A DNA stretch of 60,408 nt from IMG/VR virus record IMGVR_UViG_3300037245_001069, positions 1 through 60,408 of that record, one strand, 5' to 3'. The notes below the pieces were generated by a model, which saw nothing but the letters and a program-made list of their open reading frames with translations, was not told where the DNA came from and did not search any database. Within the stretch, counting starts at the first letter, position 1. Each line of letters starts with the position of its first letter. Below are positions 2,388-60,408 of this stretch, in pieces. A program made the translations under genes and the position numbers. Source of the stretch: a virus.

Positions 2388-3218
2388 TTATAATCTTATC
2401 GCCTTCACAGGACTTTCAGTTTCTAATATATCGGAATCAATTATCTTTATGTAGTTGGCAGTTGTATTAATGTTCTTATGCCCTGCTATCTTCTGCACAC
2501 GCCTTAAATCAACACCATTCTTTATAAGCTGAGTCAAACATGAGTGTCTTAAACTGTGGCTTGATATACGCTTATTTATCCCTGCCTTTTTTGCACTCGA
2601 TTTTACGATATTTTGAATACTTGTTACCGAATAATGATTACCAGTCGCCCCCTCAAATAAATACGAACTAACCCTATATACTTTCCAATATTCACGGATC
2701 AAAGACAAAAGAGAATCATCCAACATAACAATCCTGTCAATCTTACCTTTCGAATTACGGATGTTTATTTTTGAATTTTTACTATCAATATCGTTAATCT
2801 TAACATTAATTGCCTCTGAAACTCTTAACGCACAAGCATACATTAACGCAATAACTGTTCGATGTTTTAGGTTTATCGTAACATCCATCATCGTTTGCAT
2901 TTCTTCAGTTGATAAAATGTCCGGCTGTTTTTGTTCTATCTTTGGCCTTGGAAGAATATCGTGATCGAACTTCCTTCCCTTAACTTCTCGGTAGTACGCC
3001 TTGAAAGAGTTGATTATTGACATTTGCGAGGAACTGCTTATGTTTCTTCTTTTACGACTGACAATATACTTTCTTAAATCTGTCTCATCAATATCATCAT
3101 AGTGCTTATTTAGTCGCAATGCAACGACCTTTATAACTCCTATGTAAGAACTGATAGTCTTATCACTTAGATTTTTAAGTAATAGTTTTTCTTCGAATAA
3201 TTCAATCTTTTCGCTCAT
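2388..3218 (-). CDS. int: tyrosine recombinase / phage integrase (XerC/D-like)
   Basis: 276 residues from the ATG at 3218; an ATG at 3251 would place the promoter inside the gene. The N-terminal SAM-like core-binding domain is about residues 1-90. The catalytic domain follows with Arg132 (ACALRVSEA), Lys157/159 (NSKGKIDR), His221-x-x-Arg224 (HSLRHSC), His247 (AGHKNINTT) and the nucleophile Tyr256 (ANYIKI). It lacks an N-terminal arm-binding domain and also the extra helix expected of integron integrases. It should integrate the phage by strand exchange. The adjacent array of inverted-repeat modules (3250-5850) is a possible additional substrate; that is inference. Confidence 0.92.
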   Translation of the reverse strand: MSEKIELFEEKLLLKNLSDKTISSYIGVIKVVALRLNKHYDDIDETDLRKYIVSRKRRNISSSSQMSIINSFKAYYREVKGRKFDHDILPRPKIEQKQPDILSTEEMQTMMDVTINLKHRTVIALMYACALRVSEAINVKINDIDSKNSKINIRNSKGKIDRIVMLDDSLLSLIREYWKVYRVSSYLFEGATGNHYSVTSIQNIVKSSAKKAGINKRISSHSLRHSCLTQLIKNGVDLRRVQKIAGHKNINTTANYIKIIDSDILETESPVKAIRL

Positions 3219-3253
3219 GAAACAAATGTACGAATATAAATTTATATACACAA
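3216..3253 (-). promoter_or_regulatory. Bacteroidota-type promoter of the integrase (leaderless)
   Basis: On the minus strand: TTG (3253-3251), a 20-base spacer, TACATTTG (3230-3223), four bases, then ATG (3218). It matches TTG-N19-21-TAnnTTTG exactly. The expected transcription start falls at or next to the ATG, so the mRNA would lack a leader. Confidence 0.75.
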
Positions 3254-3271
3254 CATTGGGCTATACATTAG

Positions 3272-3535
3272 TTACCGTGCATTTTGCGCCTTTAAGTATT
3301 GGCACTTTTCTGGATTCGGATTAACTGAGCAAAAACCACCTATGCAATCTTTTTCATACAAGTCGCAAAACGTACCCTTCGGCACGGTAACAAAGTGCAT
3401 AGAAAATAATTTTACTAACTCCCCTACTTTAGGTGAATCAATATCATCATAAACTTTTGTCTCATCCCAATCTTTACGTATTTGCTCAATTGTATTTTCT
3501 TTGAAATACTTTTTTAAATTATCTAATATTGTCAT
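3272..3535 (-). CDS. unknown small protein with Cys cluster
   Basis: 87 residues. The C-terminal half holds four cysteines (CDLYEKDC, GGFC, EKC), as in small metal-binding proteins, and ends KAQNAR. It is the first gene of the modular stretch. The sequence just past its stop (about 3252-3280, AACATTGGGCTATACATTAG) loosely resembles the inverted-repeat ends of the neighbouring modules. Confidence 0.6.
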   Translation of the reverse strand: MTILDNLKKYFKENTIEQIRKDWDETKVYDDIDSPKVGELVKLFSMHFVTVPKGTFCDLYEKDCIGGFCSVNPNPEKCQYLKAQNAR

Positions 3536-3578
3536 TATTTCTTAGTTTTTAATTCGTAAAATAAAATTCCATGCACAG

Positions 3579-4027
3579 AACGTTAGCGGTTATGTGCCAA
3601 AATCTTCATACCATTCTTTAAAGTCTTCAATATGCATTGTTTGGCAGTTGTCATAAACATCTTCTGCTTTTGGCAAACAACCGCTAACAACGTTTTTATG
3701 TAAGCTGTTTTCGCTCGTAGTCTCAGAACTTCCAACCGCACAAATCGGTGGTTTTACTTTCGTAATCATTATTTTTGCCATAGCACGTCCAATATCTTCA
3801 TAAGTCCATTTGTTTTTCAAATAAACTTCTCTATGTTTTTCGTACTCTTTTATACTTTCCTGTATAATTTCTTGTACGTATAATTTTTGTTTCGCTTTTT
3901 CAAGTTTATCCTTTGCAAACTTGATAATTTCTTTATTTTCTTTGTCCATCGCTAGTAAATTTAAAGTTATTATCTCGTATCTAATTTCTCGGTTACCGTA
4001 GGGCGGTCAACACATAGCAGCAACGTT
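3579..4027. repeat. inverted-repeat-bounded gene module U1
   Basis: The left end, AACGTTAGCGGTTATGTGCC (3579-3598), is matched in inverted orientation by the right end (4027-4008), AACGTTGCTGCTATGTGTTG. Inside is one leftward gene (3590-3949). The 5' leader between the right end and the ATG is nearly the same as in module U2, although the encoded proteins differ. Within the gene, an inverted copy of the core (ACCGCTAAC, 3680-3688) pairs with the left end and gives a 116-bp imperfect palindrome. It could be a gene cassette or a MITE-like element. Confidence 0.65.
3590..3949 (-). CDS. cassette-borne protein of module U1, unknown
   Basis: 119 residues, charged and helical at the N-terminus (DKENKEIIKFAKDKLEKAKQ). 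The last 40 residues (NVVSGCLPK onward) are partly encoded by the repeat element: the core AACGTT-GTT-AGCGGT reads N-V-V-S-G. The stop codon lies inside the left inverted repeat. The start is preceded by AAATTTACTAGCG, a leader shared with the gene at 4907-5257. Confidence 0.6.
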   Translation of the reverse strand: MDKENKEIIKFAKDKLEKAKQKLYVQEIIQESIKEYEKHREVYLKNKWTYEDIGRAMAKIMITKVKPPICAVGSSETTSENSLHKNVVSGCLPKAEDVYDNCQTMHIEDFKEWYEDFGT

Positions 4028-4298
4028 GTAAACAAACTAACTCGCTAAGAAGCTCGTTTATTTCTACATGTTGCTATTTAAATTTTCAAGATCTTGGATA
4101 AAGCCCGAAAGAATGAACAGCTGGCCGCGTATCGCCTCTCTGTTTATTGGGTTCGATACTTGTTTCTTCAGATCCTCTAAATGGATTCTTTCTTTCTCGT
4201 ATTTTTCAATCAACTTTTCAATTTTATTCATGTTCTATGCTTTAAGTTAAAAATTTAAACAGATTCCAACATTCCCGAAATACCGTTTGTTTACAACG
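4024..4298. repeat. inverted-repeat-bounded module with 14-bp perfect ends
   Basis: CGTTGTAAACAAAC (4024-4037) is repeated as a perfect inverted copy at 4285-4298. The left end runs directly out of the AACGTT right end of module U1, so neighbouring modules share a boundary. One small leftward gene (4064-4231) lies inside. Confidence 0.6.
4064..4231 (-). CDS. 55-aa coiled-coil protein, unknown
   Basis: It begins MNKIEKLIEKYEKERIHLED and is helical and charged throughout. It is the only gene inside the 14-bp inverted repeat at 4024-4298. Its type and spacing resemble the neighbouring 57-aa gene (4397-4570), another short K/E-rich helical protein. Confidence 0.55.
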   Translation of the reverse strand: MNKIEKLIEKYEKERIHLEDLKKQVSNPINREAIRGQLFILSGFIQDLENLNSNM

Positions 4299-4396
4299 GC
4301 CTCGATAACCTTAACCCTACTAACTACCTGACCGCGAGTTAGTCAGTTGACAACAAACGATAAACGGAACTTGATCGGCAGTGGTTAAGTGCCGGG
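4299..4396. other. noncoding palindrome-rich segment
   Basis: About 100 bases without a gene, dense in short dyads. Examples are CTGAC/GTCAG around CGCGAGTTA, CTTAACC paired with GGTTAAG about 80 bases later, and the palindrome GGTTAACC. It is GC-richer than its surroundings and lies near the replication genes. It could be a replication origin or a recombination site. Confidence 0.35.
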
Positions 4397-4570
4397 TTAA
4401 CCTTTAGAATTGTTCCCAGCCTTTTCTAAAATAGAAATAGTGTAAGTGACAGCATCGATACTCATAGCGATCGGTAGTGCTTTCATATACTCACTTTCTT
4501 TGTTTAAAGTATCCAAATCTTCTTCTAATTTAATTAACACTTTTCTTAATTCTTCAATTGCTTTTTTCAT
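4397..4570 (-). CDS. 57-aa helical protein, unknown
   Basis: It starts MKKAIEELRKVLIKLEEDLD and is amphipathic-helical, with a more hydrophobic second half (IAMSIDAVTYTISILEKAG). It may form a short coiled coil. It belongs to the modular early stretch; no family was recognised. Confidence 0.55.
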   Translation of the reverse strand: MKKAIEELRKVLIKLEEDLDTLNKESEYMKALPIAMSIDAVTYTISILEKAGNNSKG

Positions 4571-4634
4571 ACCTATTTCTTTTTTATAAAATTCTTTCTC
4601 AATCCAGAAACTCCGTTTACACGACCATTATAGT

Positions 4635-4868
4635 TCAGTTTGCTTTTATATTCTTGCCACATATCGGACAGTAATTGTCATCATTGCATTTCACCCTTTC
4701 ATCATGTATCCAGTCATCGCAAACCGAAACAATAACACAAGGTATATTTAATGCTTTAGGCTTTAGCACTTTAATTAATTCCGTTAATTCGTCCTGCTTT
4801 CTTTTAAGAGCATCTTCATACTTTTTAATCTCTTTCCAAATATCATCAACATCTTTTTGTGTTTTCAT
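4635..4868 (-). CDS. coiled-coil plus zinc-ribbon small protein
   Basis: 77 residues. The N-terminal half is a coiled coil (DDIWKEIKKYEDALKRKQDE). The C-terminal half carries CxxC-type cysteines ending YCPICGKNIKAN, typical of a small zinc ribbon. The gene at 5333-5569 has the same plan (helix, then CGICG zinc ribbon), so the two may be distant paralogues. Confidence 0.6.
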   Translation of the reverse strand: MKTQKDVDDIWKEIKKYEDALKRKQDELTELIKVLKPKALNIPCVIVSVCDDWIHDERVKCNDDNYCPICGKNIKAN

Positions 4869-4902
4869 TTTGTGGTTTAATAATCGAACTAAACTTAGAC
4901 AG

Positions 4903-5333
4903 AACGTTAGCGGTCATTGCCTAAATTATGGCTATGTTCGCTGCAACTATTATACTGTCTGATAAATTCTGCAAAATCTTTTTCTTTTACCTCTATTGAT
5001 AAGTGTCCCCAATTGTGCATCCAATGTAAGAAGTTCAGTGCATTTTCGGTAGTCAACGAACCGCTAACATTTTGTAAATGCAAACCGCTTTTCTCGTGGG
5101 TAGTTTCGCCATCGCTCAATTTTGCGTATAGATAATGATAAGCCAAACTGTGTTTACCGTATGGCATATACAGTACATCTTTACCATCATCATCACATAT
5201 ACATATTTGGTTATTTTCAACCTGCCTAATTTTAATTTTTATTTCCTTTATTTCCATCGCGCGTAAATTTATAATTTTGTAACTCGTTTGTAGTTCGGTT
5301 ATCGCAGGGCGGTCAACACATAGCCGCAACGTT
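4903..5333. repeat. inverted-repeat-bounded gene module U2
   Basis: The left end, AACGTTAGCGGTCATTGCC (4903-4921), and the inverted right end (5333-5314), AACGTTGCGGCTATGTGTTG, match those of U1. The leader up to the gene start follows the same order as U1 (GACCGCCCT, then CG-TAACCGA, then AAATTTAC-GCG-ATG). A second inverted core copy, ACCGCTAAC, lies inside the gene at 5060-5068. Confidence 0.65.
4907..5257 (-). CDS. cassette-borne protein of module U2, unknown
   Basis: 116 residues from the ATG at 5257 (MEIKEIKIKIRQVENN). An upstream in-frame ATG at 5329 lies inside the repeat and was rejected. It is partly acidic (CICDDDGKD) and includes QNVSGSLTTENAL, where NVSG is encoded by the repeat core. 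The C-terminus and stop fall in the left inverted repeat. It is not related in sequence to the U1 protein except in repeat-derived parts. Confidence 0.6.
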   Translation of the reverse strand: MEIKEIKIKIRQVENNQICICDDDGKDVLYMPYGKHSLAYHYLYAKLSDGETTHEKSGLHLQNVSGSLTTENALNFLHWMHNWGHLSIEVKEKDFAEFIRQYNSCSEHSHNLGNDR

Positions 5334-5569
5334 TAATGCAATTCGGCATCTATCTTGTGGTCACATGCAGTGCATATAATGTCAGTTATTAGGTATCCAC
5401 AAATTCCGCACTTGCAAGCCGAAACGCTAACAGAGTCTAAATTGAACTTTAAAACTTGTTCAGCTAATTCATCTACTTTCTGTTGAAGTGCATCAAAATC
5501 TTCAGAGGTACTACCAGTATCGAAATACTTGTTTCCTACTTTCCCATATAATTTTCCGTGATATTCCAT
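5333..5569 (-). CDS. small zinc-ribbon protein, unknown
   Basis: 78 residues. The N-terminus is YHGKLYGKVGNKYFDTG, then comes a helical segment, then a four-cysteine ribbon (CKCGICG and CTAC). The stop codon overlaps the AACGTT right end of module U2. A weak core copy (CGCTAAC, near 5425) encodes the VSVSA region, as in the neighbouring modules. Confidence 0.6.
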   Translation of the reverse strand: MEYHGKLYGKVGNKYFDTGSTSEDFDALQQKVDELAEQVLKFNLDSVSVSACKCGICGYLITDIICTACDHKIDAELH

Positions 5570-5610
5570 GTGTATATTTTTAATTACGTTTTAAAACTCA
5601 ACTTCGCCGG

Positions 5611-5849
5611 AACGTTATGGCTTACCCTCTCCGTGTCTAACTATCTGTGTTTCGTCAATTTCTATCCAGTAGCAATCATTAAGTTCGTCATCCCATTTGT
5701 TATCAAACCATTCAGCAATAGACCATGCAAAATCTTTCATTACCCAGTAATAACCATTTTCTCTTTCCTTCGCTTTTGTATCCATAATTTATCGGTATTT
5801 AAAAGTTTCCACTAAATTTCAAGGGCGGTCAACACATAGCATGAACGTT
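5611..5849. repeat. inverted-repeat-bounded gene module U3
   Basis: The left end AACGTTATGGCTTACC (5611) and the inverted right end (5849-5830) AACGTTCATGCTATGTGTTG flank one 56-aa gene. The right end is preceded by the same GGGCGGTCAACACATAGC found in U1 and U2. This is the shortest module. Confidence 0.6.
5615..5785 (-). CDS. 56-aa acidic/aromatic protein, unknown
   Basis: Read from the ATG at 5785 to a TAA inside the left repeat. It is rich in Trp and Asp: GYYWVMKDFAWSIAEWFDNKWDDE, with WIEIDE near the end. This resembles short phage proteins of the GYYWV-K-x-WxIAEW type, with no assigned function. It is the only gene in module U3. Confidence 0.6.
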   Translation of the reverse strand: MDTKAKERENGYYWVMKDFAWSIAEWFDNKWDDELNDCYWIEIDETQIVRHGEGKP

Positions 5850-5865
5850 CAGTTCAATTACCTCA

Positions 5866-6537
5866 CTACCTAAAGCTAGTTCCTTTTAATTCTATAAAGT
5901 TAAACATCTCAGCCATCCGATCTTTTATTATCGGCTCGATATTCAAATCTTCAGGAGAGAAGTTTGACGTAACGTGTGTTAATTTACCTCTCTGAAATAA
6001 TTCATACCGAATCATAAACAGGGAATGAATAATAGAATCTGCCTTGGTGCCATAAATTTTCTCATCCATTTCCTTTCCAAATTCGTCGATGCATAGTCCA
6101 TACGGATCTCCATTTATATTATATCCATACTTCATCACATTCCCATCTTGTTTGTAACTTTCAATTATTTGCTCCAGGGAAACACATAAATAGCCATTCG
6201 AATTAAACGGGAAATAAGTTACAAGGAATTTTCTTATTGAAGCCATTAGAGCCGTTTTACCGCATCCAAACGTTCCGTATAGATAAATACCCTTGTTTAA
6301 GTCCAACCCTTCATTGCCTGTAAAGTGACGTAGCATAGCAGTTAATTTAGGTGCATTCTCTTTCCTTACAATAAACTCTTTGCCGATATATTCAGAAGCA
6401 ACCTTTATAAATTGTTTTTTTATCACTACTTCATTTTCGTCAAAATCAATTAACTTACTAAATCGCGTCGAGTGTTTTAAATCTTGTGTTATCGAATCCC
6501 TCGTCTTTCCTTCTAGTATCTTGCTGATGTGATCCAT
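5866..6537 (-). CDS. DnaC-like AAA+ helicase loader
   Basis: 223 residues. Walker A is GTFGCGKTA (88-96), Walker B is LCIDEFG (148-154), a sensor-like THVTSNFSPEDL follows, and Arg residues occur near the C-terminus (IKDRMAEMF). This is the DnaC/IstB-type ATPase fold. It would load the host replicative helicase at the phage origin. It overlaps the upstream initiator-like gene by 80 bases in another frame, consistent with coordinated expression. Confidence 0.85.
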   Translation of the reverse strand: MDHISKILEGKTRDSITQDLKHSTRFSKLIDFDENEVVIKKQFIKVASEYIGKEFIVRKENAPKLTAMLRHFTGNEGLDLNKGIYLYGTFGCGKTALMASIRKFLVTYFPFNSNGYLCVSLEQIIESYKQDGNVMKYGYNINGDPYGLCIDEFGKEMDEKIYGTKADSIIHSLFMIRYELFQRGKLTHVTSNFSPEDLNIEPIIKDRMAEMFNFIELKGTSFR

Positions 6538-13558: not shown

Positions 13559-13854
13559 GATCTTATAGATTCTTCAATAATTTTAACATCTACGAATGAT
13601 ATATATTTTGGATCACCATCTTCATGCTGAATTTCAGCTTTATGTATGTCCATATTCTGAGATTCAAGATCGCGTCCAGTATCAAAGGATTTATAAACAT
13701 TTCCTTCAATATGGACAAAGCAATCTTCAAACTCAAAATCAAAACTAGAATAGCCATACCAATGAGTATCGTAGGTTGTATCAAACCCTTTCATCTCCAT
13801 TTTTTCGATGGCTGATTCTAATTCTGCTATTAAGTTATTTAGGCTGTAATTCAT
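13555..13854 (-). CDS. unknown protein of recombination operon
   Basis: 99 residues, acidic and aromatic (YDTHWYGYSSFDFEFEDCF). It overlaps the exonuclease gene by 4 bases and the upstream DUF1351-like gene by one. Its position between recombination genes suggests a coupled accessory role. Confidence 0.6.
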   Translation of the reverse strand: MNYSLNNLIAELESAIEKMEMKGFDTTYDTHWYGYSSFDFEFEDCFVHIEGNVYKSFDTGRDLESQNMDIHKAEIQHEDGDPKYISFVDVKIIEESIRS

Positions 13855-15416
13855 TACACAGTCAGTGTTGAGACCAATTCGTTTAATTCATGAACATCTT
13901 TGTTGTTCTTTAATTTATGAATACCTGAATCAATGTACTCATTCATTTCGATCTGGGAAAGTAGTTTTTTAACCTTAGCCAATAAGCCCGGTGCCGCTGC
14001 AATTAGTCTTGCATGTTTCACATTACCTATGCTTTCACAAATTAAGTAACCGCCATAGTATTCTATTTCTTCATCCTTGCTTTCCTCGGCATTAGGTGGT
14101 GATGGGAAATTTGTGTTTTTGATTTTAGTATCAGAAACAACAGTTGATTTGTGCTTCCCTATTTTCCATTGCATTGTATTTTCTACAAATTCACCATCAA
14201 TTACCTCTTCTTTCTCAATAACTGGAATAGGCTCAACTACGGTAGGTTTAAATTCACCAATAATAGGCTCTTTTTTAGCAGCAGTAATTCCTTCGGCATA
14301 TTCAACTTTCGGAGTAGGAACAGCCGGACTCTCAACAGGAACTTCTTCGAAATCAACCGTAATTAATGTCTCTAAAATAGCAATCAAGTTATTTTTAAAT
14401 GTATCAAATTCAACATCAGTCAAATCTTCAATCATTTTTTCCGGATAGTCATTTGCTTGAATTTTAGCCGCCCATTCCAGATCATCAATACCAGCTGCCA
14501 ATAAAATATCAAGTCTTTTTGAAGCAAGCTCTTCTTTGACTTTTTTAGCTGCCTTTTCCTCTTCTCGTTTCTGCTTGGCAAAGTCGGCAAGTTCTTTTTG
14601 CTTTGCCTCAATCAATTTTTCTAACTCCTGCGCATCTGAGCCTTCCACGTAATTTCCACCAAGAAGGATGTATTTGTTTTTAAGCAAAACTAGATACTTG
14701 TCGTAGGCGATTTGCTTTGTTTCCTTCAAGATTAATTCAATATCATCTTCGCCTGTCCATTCTCTTTTTGCTTCAATAAGATATTCGTCTTTTGCATTAT
14801 TAATTACAAACCGCTTTTCAGCCTCAATAGCATCCTCAATACGAGTACGGGCAATATTAATATCAAGATGAATGCCGGAAATAGTAGTTTCACAGGCTAT
14901 TTTTAAGTCGCCAAATTCTTCTTCTGTAACTTCAAAAGCATTAAGTTTTGATTCAATCTCAGAAATTTGCTCAGGTGTAGATGCCTGAATTAAAAGAGAG
15001 CTAAATTCCCTTTGAATCTTATTGATATTCTCAGTTCTTTCAGCAAGTAATCGAGCTTTCTCAGCTTCCTTCTCAGCTTTGATACGTGCTTTTTCAGCAT
15101 TTACGCGATCAACTCCTTTTTGGATATAAGTTTCAGTATCAGAGAGTAATTCGATAAGGCTATTCCCATTAGCCTCCATTACTTTTTTACCGGCATTAAG
15201 GATTTCTTTATTCCCTTTGATAATTCTCTGGATTTCGTAACGCTTTTGCTTTACTTCAGACAGTGCCTTTTCGGACTCCTTGACTGTCTCCTTGGTGATA
15301 ACAAGATTTTTATACTTATCCACCATTTTAACTAAATCAGACTTTTTGATCTCATTGCAATTGTCTAATTCAACTACCTGCTTTTTAGGTAGATTTTTTG
15401 CAGTTTGTTTTGCCAT
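13854..15416 (-). CDS. DUF1351-like coiled-coil recombination accessory with C-terminal module
   Basis: 520 residues. The N-terminal 300 or so are coiled coil (VDKYKNLVITKETVKESEKA, then KARIKAEKEAEKARLLAERT), matching the DUF1351-type partners found next to phage annealing proteins. A Pro/Glu-rich linker (PVESPAVPTPKVEYAEG) leads to a C-terminal module with GNVKHARLIAAAPGLLAKV, usually seen as a small separate phage protein. So this looks like a fusion. It probably supports RecT; its biochemical role is unknown. Confidence 0.7.
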   Translation of the reverse strand: MAKQTAKNLPKKQVVELDNCNEIKKSDLVKMVDKYKNLVITKETVKESEKALSEVKQKRYEIQRIIKGNKEILNAGKKVMEANGNSLIELLSDTETYIQKGVDRVNAEKARIKAEKEAEKARLLAERTENINKIQREFSSLLIQASTPEQISEIESKLNAFEVTEEEFGDLKIACETTISGIHLDINIARTRIEDAIEAEKRFVINNAKDEYLIEAKREWTGEDDIELILKETKQIAYDKYLVLLKNKYILLGGNYVEGSDAQELEKLIEAKQKELADFAKQKREEEKAAKKVKEELASKRLDILLAAGIDDLEWAAKIQANDYPEKMIEDLTDVEFDTFKNNLIAILETLITVDFEEVPVESPAVPTPKVEYAEGITAAKKEPIIGEFKPTVVEPIPVIEKEEVIDGEFVENTMQWKIGKHKSTVVSDTKIKNTNFPSPPNAEESKDEEIEYYGGYLICESIGNVKHARLIAAAPGLLAKVKKLLSQIEMNEYIDSGIHKLKNNKDVHELNELVSTLTV

Positions 15417-16308: not shown

Positions 16309-16773
16309 CTAAGACTTTGCAAACGATTTATCATTGATTTTTTTGATACGAATTGCCTCTCTCTTAGATTTTTCCAATAACTCCTTCCGTTTTTTATTTC
16401 TGGAAACTTTTGCGTACCTGTTTTTGTAGATATTCACGTAAGCCCGCCTCAAAGCATTAAAAGCCATGTTTACCTCAACTGCGTATTTTTCAGGGATATT
16501 ATTTCTGCAAATATTACCAGGCTTCCCAGTCAGTACAGTTGACAATTCTCTAAAATTAAGCGTTGCCCATGCTTTTTTATCGAAATGATCCATCGGTTTA
16601 CCTTCGCCATTTTCGTCAATATGAATGCCTACTTTAGTAGCTTCAAGGCATACTAAAGCCAGTTGTTTTGTTGCAGCATCTATTGTAGCTTGGTGCCTTT
16701 GTCCCTCGAACATGAATTTGCGTTGGAGCATTAGCCGTTCATACGTCGTGTATCTTACTCGTTTGTCTTTCAT
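16309..16773 (-). CDS. unknown basic early protein
   Basis: 154 residues with a strongly basic C-terminus (NIYKNRYAKVSRNKKRKEL), suggesting nucleic-acid or ribosome contact. The centre has FRELSTVLTGKPGNICRNNI. Its ATG overlaps the stop of the upstream 53-aa gene (TAATG). Confidence 0.65.
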   Translation of the reverse strand: MKDKRVRYTTYERLMLQRKFMFEGQRHQATIDAATKQLALVCLEATKVGIHIDENGEGKPMDHFDKKAWATLNFRELSTVLTGKPGNICRNNIPEKYAVEVNMAFNALRRAYVNIYKNRYAKVSRNKKRKELLEKSKREAIRIKKINDKSFAKS

Positions 16774-39035: not shown

Positions 39036-39329
39036 ATGGCAAATATAAATCCAGTGGCAGGACAAGATTACGATGTTGTATTAGTAGAAGAAGGCTCTTT
39101 GGTTGATGCCACTGTCACTATTGAATATAAAGACCCAAGCGGAAAAAAAACAAGAGATGTCACACCTACTAATGTAGATACTGATACCGGAGAAATAACA
39201 TACTCAATTCCAAATACTGACTCAACTTATGGCATGTGGTTATTTGTTGCAAAAATAGTAGCCTCAGATGCTAAAATAAGATACACGAATCCGGCAGAAC
39301 AGGTATTCTTCGATAATAAGAAAACCTAA
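39036..39329 (+). CDS. Ig-like small structural protein
   Basis: 97 residues. DVVLVEEGSLVDATVTIEYK and GEITYSIPNTDSTYGMWLFV show alternating beta strands typical of an immunoglobulin-like domain. It lies beside the repeat protein; likely a virion decoration or linker. Confidence 0.55.
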   Translation: MANINPVAGQDYDVVLVEEGSLVDATVTIEYKDPSGKKTRDVTPTNVDTDTGEITYSIPNTDSTYGMWLFVAKIVASDAKIRYTNPAEQVFFDNKKT

Positions 39330-60239: not shown

Positions 60240-60408
60240 ATGAAAATTACAAAAGACAAAAAATTACATTTCGTATTAGGTTTTTTAATCGCATTAGTTG
60301 GCTGTTTTATAGCTTACTTTTTATTGGGAATGAAGGAAAATCCGATCTACTTCGGGGCTGGACTTGCTATATTCGCAGGATTGACAAAAGAAGTAATCTG
60401 GGATAAGA
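60240..60408 (+). CDS. small 3-TM membrane protein, 5' part (gene spans the join)
   Basis: ATG at 60240 (MKITKDKKLHFVLGFLIALV). The frame runs to the window end and continues at 81-187, since 60329-60408 equals 1-80. It lies between the last signal-peptide gene and the lysis genes. See the entry at 1-187. Confidence 0.8.
   Translation, partial: MKITKDKKLHFVLGFLIALVGCFIAYFLLGMKENPIYFGAGLAIFAGLTKEVIWDK
60329..60408. repeat. 80-bp terminal direct repeat, right copy
   Basis: Identical to 1-80; see that entry. The unique sequence length is therefore 60,328 bp. Confidence 0.9.

Follow-up and report, generated by a model that had tools for sequence, protein, structure and literature searches.

A probable integron-like cassette platform in a Bacteroidota phage

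The IMG/VR record IMGVR_UViG_3300037245_001069 (hereafter W), the full 60,408 nt of which constitute the window to which all coordinates refer, carries seven cassettes and the remnant of an eighth at positions 3271-5869, adjoining a tyrosine recombinase gene (2388-3251) and an attI-like junction. This region is very probably an integron-like platform in a Bacteroidota phage, consisting of a tyrosine recombinase, an attI-like site and cassettes. In such a system, crossover would occur at AAC|GTT, and a cassette would extend from one such point to the next. On one strand, a hairpin would form at the far end of the cassette (R'' ..TAAC, arm L'', loop, arm L', R' AAC|GTT), and circularization would allow the cassette start to pair with the stretch preceding R'' as well. 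The recombinase would recognize the folded single strand and exchange it with attI or another site, one cassette being inserted or excised per event. The architecture of W and of a related phage, G1, was also found in the Polaribacter phage Leef_1 and in Flavobacterium chromosomes, and cassettes of this kind move: cultured phage isolates that are otherwise identical differ by cassettes.

Array layout in W and in phage G1

The order along the plus strand of the window is the recombinase, TATACATTA|GTTACC (3271) and then cassettes with hairpins ending in AACGTT. Each cassette starts with GTT-N and has an end complementary to its own start (..AAC), followed by the hairpin and then by the next AAC|GTT boundary. 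The features are listed below with their strand; U1 to U3 are module names from an earlier sequence-only reading of this DNA, and the paired ends tabulated for W and G1 were chosen by eye and are descriptive only (ORF, open reading frame).

2388-3251, minus: tyrosine recombinase gene (PF00589, 1.5e-39; catalytic motifs; homology to array recombinases)
3236-3273, plus: attI-like junction TATACATTA|GTTACC, between the recombinase 5' end and cassette 1; place and form as in 12 Flavobacterium loci (CATATA..A|GTTA)
3271-3581, plus: cassette 1; ORF 3272-3535 (minus); own ends GTTACCGTGC/GCACGGTAAC; hairpin arms 3395-3418/3553-3576, loop 134 nt
3582-4024, plus: cassette 2 (U1); ORF 3590-3949 (minus); own ends 3582-3602/3668-3688
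4025-4626, plus: cassette 3; ORFs 4064-4231 and 4397-4570 (both minus); own ends 4025-4037/4285-4297; inner arms 4422-4440/4573-4591, loop 132 nt
4627-4905, plus: cassette 4; ORF 4635-4868 (minus); cassette start shared with two G1 cassettes
4906-5330, plus: cassette 5 (U2); ORF 4907-5257 (minus); own ends 4906-4914/5060-5068
5331-5613, plus: cassette 6; ORF 5333-5569 (minus); arms 5437-5455/5588-5606, loop 132 nt; own-end pairing weak
5614-5846, plus: cassette 7 (U3); ORF 5615-5785 (minus); own ends GTTATGG/CCATAAT
5847-5869, plus: remnant of the eighth cassette, start only; window 5844-5869 matches G1 16744-16769 at 96%, with the full form in G1 at 16747
4001-4018, 5307-5324 and 5823-5840, plus: 18-bp motif GGGCGGTCAACACATAGC, the L' end of cassettes 2, 5 and 7; exact matches

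The sequence-only reading had described an array of one-gene modules with inverted-repeat ends. These ends lie where it had placed them: GGGCGGTCAACACATAGC occurs exactly at 4001, 5307 and 5823 only (0.01 expected by shuffling), AACGTTAGCGG is found at 3579 and 4903 with inverted partners at 3668-3688 and 5060-5075, and the 14-bp perfect ends 4024-4037/4285-4298 are present. The modules corresponded to cassettes 2, 5 and 7 and part of cassette 3; cassettes 1, 4 and 6, the second gene of cassette 3, the remnant and the attI-like junction had been missed. The density of inverted repeats in the arrays is 7 to 17 times that in the remainder of the W and G1 genomes, with 1.9 per kb in W 3200-5900 versus 0.26 per kb across the remaining genome, and 3.3 per kb in the G1 array versus 0.2 elsewhere. 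Nine loops of 130-141 nt were counted in the two arrays, and none among the 22 inverted repeats elsewhere. The constant 132-nt loops were considered as a possible measuring device; this idea was set aside, hairpin length being nearly constant in chromosomes too. Tandem transposons resembling miniature inverted-repeat transposable elements would, like the modules, have terminal inverted repeats, and the inverted module ends do contain AACGTT, but the boundaries are shared head-to-tail, the ends are cassette-specific rather than family-specific and the orientation is fixed, away from the recombinase; we give this explanation almost no credence.

All the cassette ORFs of the window are antisense to the site orientation. 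Most begin inside the hairpin and stop near the cassette-start GTTA, the complement of which supplies the stop codon in several cases, in agreement with the earlier statement that stop codons lie in the repeat. Conserved peptide motifs in the middle of unrelated cassette proteins are best read as translations of R''-L'' site DNA. Chimeric proteins generated by recombination inside genes were rejected as a candidate explanation: the joint motifs (KLNLDxV and similar) coincide with R''-L'' site DNA, and site constraint therefore accounts for them. No convincing protein family match was obtained for the window cassette ORFs, and cassette 5, looked for in phages, yielded no match. A few phage cassettes contain two ORFs. 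Many cassette ORFs encode 55-57 residues with seemingly unrelated sequences (window 4064-4231, 4397-4570 and 5615-5785; G1 14767, 16953, 18743 and 19059).

An IMG/VR scan for AACGTTAGCGGTNATNTGC identified one true relative, IMGVR_UViG_3300043219_000064 (G1), in which about 15 small minus-strand genes with boundaries like those in the window occupy 14.5-20.6 kb. Homologous modules occur in a different order in W and G1, with the same shells around different genes, and certain G1 modules have nearly identical flanks enclosing unrelated ORFs. Exact and near-exact leader patterns were not found in IMG/VR outside the window, and the 26 stretches recovered by a AACTNAACTTAG..AACGTT scan were all chance matches as far as inspected, G1 excepted. 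A genome scan gave ten matches, of which two, in Flavobacterium, appear real and the other eight appear to be due to chance. Beside the G1 array, in the position of the W integrase, lies a DNA cytosine methyltransferase gene (13568-14440). The end of the W record (60309-60408) directly repeats its start (1-100) and, given this short terminal repeat, the genome is probably complete and circular (or circularly permuted).

Cassette gain and loss in cultured Polaribacter phages

Phage Leef_1 has the same layout adjoining its integrase. The records of phages Freya_1 to Freya_10, all isolated on a single host, range from 44.0 to 48.9 kb; Freya_1 and Freya_10 are 100.000% identical over the full 43,978 bp of Freya_1, and the whole 4,942-bp difference between them is array. 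Six isolates (Freya_1, 2, 5, 6, 8 and 9) differ from Freya_10 at AAC junctions beside int. The arrays of Freya_9, 5, 2 and 1 each reproduce the beginning of the Freya_10 array exactly, break off at ..AAC and continue into a common 49-nt suffix, adjacent to the integrase, that begins AACACCCC; an internal block is missing from Freya_8, where the overlap is CAAC, and Freya_6 has its own 469-bp cassette at attI, next to the integrase. As AAC makes up 2.7% of the trinucleotides in the Freya array, six AAC junctions are not attributable to chance. Danklef_1 and Danklef_5 carry a 777-bp unit with an adenine methylase gene that is absent, with a TAAC overlap, from Danklef_2, 3 and 4. This unit lies at 1334-2110 of locus L112 in Danklef_5 and is also present in Danklef_1 (L108), the five isolates being otherwise near-identical; the adenine-specific DNA methylase cassette is plausibly anti-restriction cargo. 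The paper describing the isolation of these phages gives their size range and integrase, with no mention of integrons (PMC8776804).

The comparison of related phages for module gain and loss that the sequence-only reading had proposed thus revealed differences at AAC junctions in both Freya and Danklef, and its suggestion of a gene-exchange system holds for these relatives, in which modules are gained and lost at AAC|GTT-type ends. The G1 modules with near-identical flanks around unrelated ORFs could also reflect a phage operon with common leaders and terminators, in which homologous recombination between repeated shells is the sole source of shuffling. This reading is highly improbable: the Freya junctions share 3-4 nt (AAC/CAAC), which is too short for recombination of that kind, and always lie at a cassette boundary, and each cassette pairs with its own end, not with that of its neighbour. 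The cultured Freya and Danklef phages render cassette exchange, including that of the methylase cassette, directly testable.

Chromosomal arrays and the structure of the sites

The Flavobacterium genome G122 contains 49 sites in a single orientation over 33 kb (none in the reversed control), with a 347-residue tyrosine recombinase gene directly upstream, in the order recombinase, attI and 49 cassettes. The sites have the form NNNN-TAACA, arm, loop, arm, RRA, ACGTTA-NNNN, with a TAACA-to-ACGTT span of 117-124 nt (standard deviation 1.4). Complementarity between the first bases of a cassette and those preceding its own R'' scores 0.908, versus 0.397 in shuffled controls (at most 0.49 in 2,000 shuffles) and 0.353 across the junction. 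In other Flavobacterium genomes, the regions following 20 homologous recombinase genes contain 23 sites on the recombinase strand and one on the opposite strand. A conserved attI-like junction, consisting of an inverted repeat followed by CATATA..A|GTTA, lies just past the recombinase stop codon (12 loci). The R''-R' span is nearly constant in chromosomes despite variable arms (117-124 nt in G122, 112-123 nt in other genomes), and phage spans fall into classes near 118, 184, 262-284 and 328 nt.

In 30 non-redundant chromosomal sites, all 17 consensus pairs vary on both sides, with compensatory changes, and the covariation score is 0.80 (0.15 shuffled); 92.9% of cells pair, a percentage inflated by the selection of sites with complementary arms, which leaves the variety of pairs and the fixed register unaffected. 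Position 19/110 is A.C in 29 of the 30 sites and 10/120 is T.G in 25. These fixed A.C and T.G positions become wobble and mismatch on the other strand and hence distinguish the two strands, much as extrahelical bases do in attC. When three chromosomal sites were folded as DNA, the bottom strand folded slightly better (better z-scores). For the phages, own-end complementarity was tested without bias on 12 cassettes with exact AACGTT at their boundaries and reached 99, versus at most 98 in 20,000 shuffles (P≤5e-5). In the sequence-only reading, the palindrome at the gene 3' end was taken for the counterpart of attC; comparison with the chromosomal sites showed instead that it arises where the start of a cassette pairs with the end of that same cassette. 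The hairpin resembling attC is the other one (L''..L'), which contains the 5' part of the antisense gene in the phage.

A covariance model built from the chromosomal sites (R1; E-values are rough) found matches in 48 of 60 genomes from the same family (E≤0.001) and in 21 of the 41 Bacteroidota genomes sampled (E≤1e-5). In eight other genomes, a Vibrio and a Shewanella among them, it found none at E≤0.01. When the model was applied to 260 kb of sequence from phages and controls, the two highest-ranking matches, both weak in score, fell in the G1 and Freya_10 arrays. The type of site is thus widespread in Bacteroidota, beyond W, where the earlier reading had proposed to search for the repeat ends. 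The assembly contigs of several loci (L072, L075, L076, L081-L083, L086 and L088) end shortly past the recombinase gene. This would be expected if assemblies fail at arrays, and arrays are probably under-counted.

We consider it likely that Bacteroidota have an integron system of their own, independent of IntI, with a simple Xer-like recombinase without the IntI patch, fixed-length AAC|GTT hairpin sites and chromosomal arrays of tens of cassettes, carried also on temperate phages, with cassettes gained and lost within phage populations. No prior description was found in the literature searched, most subscription papers and preprints lying outside that search. The single complete integron that IntegronFinder 2.0 names for Bacteroidetes proper is that of Salinibacter ruber (PMC9024848), and Bacteroidota go unmentioned in the text of a paper on taxon-specific attC models (PMC8352920). 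Confirmation of the present system would mean that a major means of gene capture in an abundant phylum has been overlooked, probably due to standard tools seeking the IntI domain and the GTTRRRY box, and the IntI patch, held essential for cassette recombination, may be dispensable, as these arrays suggest.

The recombinase and the relationship to known systems

Chromosome-dimer resolution by Xer uses one double-stranded dif site, and the present system differs from it in having an array of palindromic cassette sites. The W recombinase (287 residues from a GTG; an alternative MSEKIEL start lies at 3218) is XerA/XerD-like, with all the catalytic residues R-K-HxxR-H-Y, and resembles XerA/XerC/XerD-type recombinases (PDB 5hxy, 4a8e, 1a0p) in sequence, length and catalytic residues. 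It is 35% identical to the G122 array recombinase and closer to array recombinases (33-39%) than to XerC/D-type controls. The W and G122 enzymes align with IntI4 in two pieces only, about 62 IntI4 residues (~180-241) facing about 20 query residues, and the IntI-specific insertion of about 42 residues is therefore missing from both. Their scores with the integron model TIGR02249 (152 and 209 bits) are below the cut-off of 265. The G122 enzyme narrowly exceeds the cut-off for NF040815 ('XerA / integron integrase'), and the W enzyme is below the cut-off for this model and for the XerD and integron models. None of 61 Flavobacterium genomes has a TIGR02249 match above the cut-off; sub-cut-off matches occurred everywhere, including 14 controls, and the presence of such a match was rejected as a marker.

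The array is not an integron in the strict sense, because it has neither an IntI with the additional (patch) domain nor R' GTTRRRY with R'' RYYYAAC; the cores are AAC|GTTAGCGG, GTTGTAAA, GTTCAGTT, GTTATGGC and others. Palindromic sites in one orientation nevertheless separate single-gene cassettes (49 same-strand sites in G122; also W and G1), and cassette starts are complementary to their own R'' in G122 and the phages. The first cassette lies at attI beside the recombinase, and the Freya_9/Freya_10 and Freya_6 differences include the position next to int; excision or integration at the core is seen in the natural Freya and Danklef variants at AAC, W being excepted. These arrays thus resemble sedentary chromosomal integrons (IntI, attI, attC; e.g. 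Vibrio) in their recombinase, attI and one-orientation array, palindromic sites of low conservation, cassette starts complementary to their own R'', joining of cassettes at attI beside the recombinase and strand-asymmetric hairpin mismatches. They differ in the recombinase without the IntI additional domain, a core of AAC|GTT plus variable bases rather than GTTRRRY, a nearly fixed site span (117-124 nt in one Flavobacterium array) and a long extra stem, X/X'.

Canonical integron pieces (attC with IntI, or a cluster of attC sites lacking integrase, CALIN, served by a host IntI) carried by the phage would have this same logic and the int-attI-cassettes order, and cassettes with recombination sites have been published as phage CALINs or integrons in flavobacterial and other phages, one of them the Polaribacter phage P12002L (PMC9892861). 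Canonical attC models were used to call those sites, and IntI1 recombines five of six (PMC9892861). The present arrays differ from phage CALINs in the sites themselves, in having a simple recombinase of their own and in the antisense orientation of the ORFs relative to the sites. With the IntI insertion absent, R' consisting of AACGTT + N rather than GTTRRRY, TIGR02249 scores below the cut-off throughout and the site model silent in a Vibrio and a Shewanella, this explanation is very doubtful. P12002L contains one isolated site of the present type near 39240, close to a methyltransferase gene.

Several observations weigh against an integron-like platform in W. No gain or loss was seen for W itself, only an altered module order relative to G1; the covariance model gave no match in the window; the W cassette 1 site folds weakly, phage hairpins being long and weak as single strands; the pairing percentage is inflated, as stated above; the W enzyme has no settled position in the recombinase tree; and no recombinase was detectable in G1 despite its array, such that a host enzyme may act there. 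The last two points would also favour movement of the cassettes by a host enzyme (Xer or a chromosomal array recombinase), with the W integrase only integrating the phage, as would the common occurrence of such sites in Flavobacteriaceae hosts. We consider this unlikely, as the array abuts the phage integrase on the attI side in W, Leef_1 and Freya, and the Freya differences include the position next to int. The involvement of the adjacent Xer-like recombinase, raised in the sequence-only reading, is consistent with the homologous arrays behind homologous recombinases in Flavobacterium; for W, its linkage to the array suggests that this recombinase would be the acting enzyme. In the favoured integron-like platform, folded single-stranded DNA would be the substrate and W may still be exchanging cassettes. 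Finally, contig C1 of genome G048 carries five near-identical copies of a 328-residue recombinase (195691, 199653, 511309, 2171013 and 2175623) that matches TIGR02249 in two pieces and is perhaps the enzyme of a mobile element.

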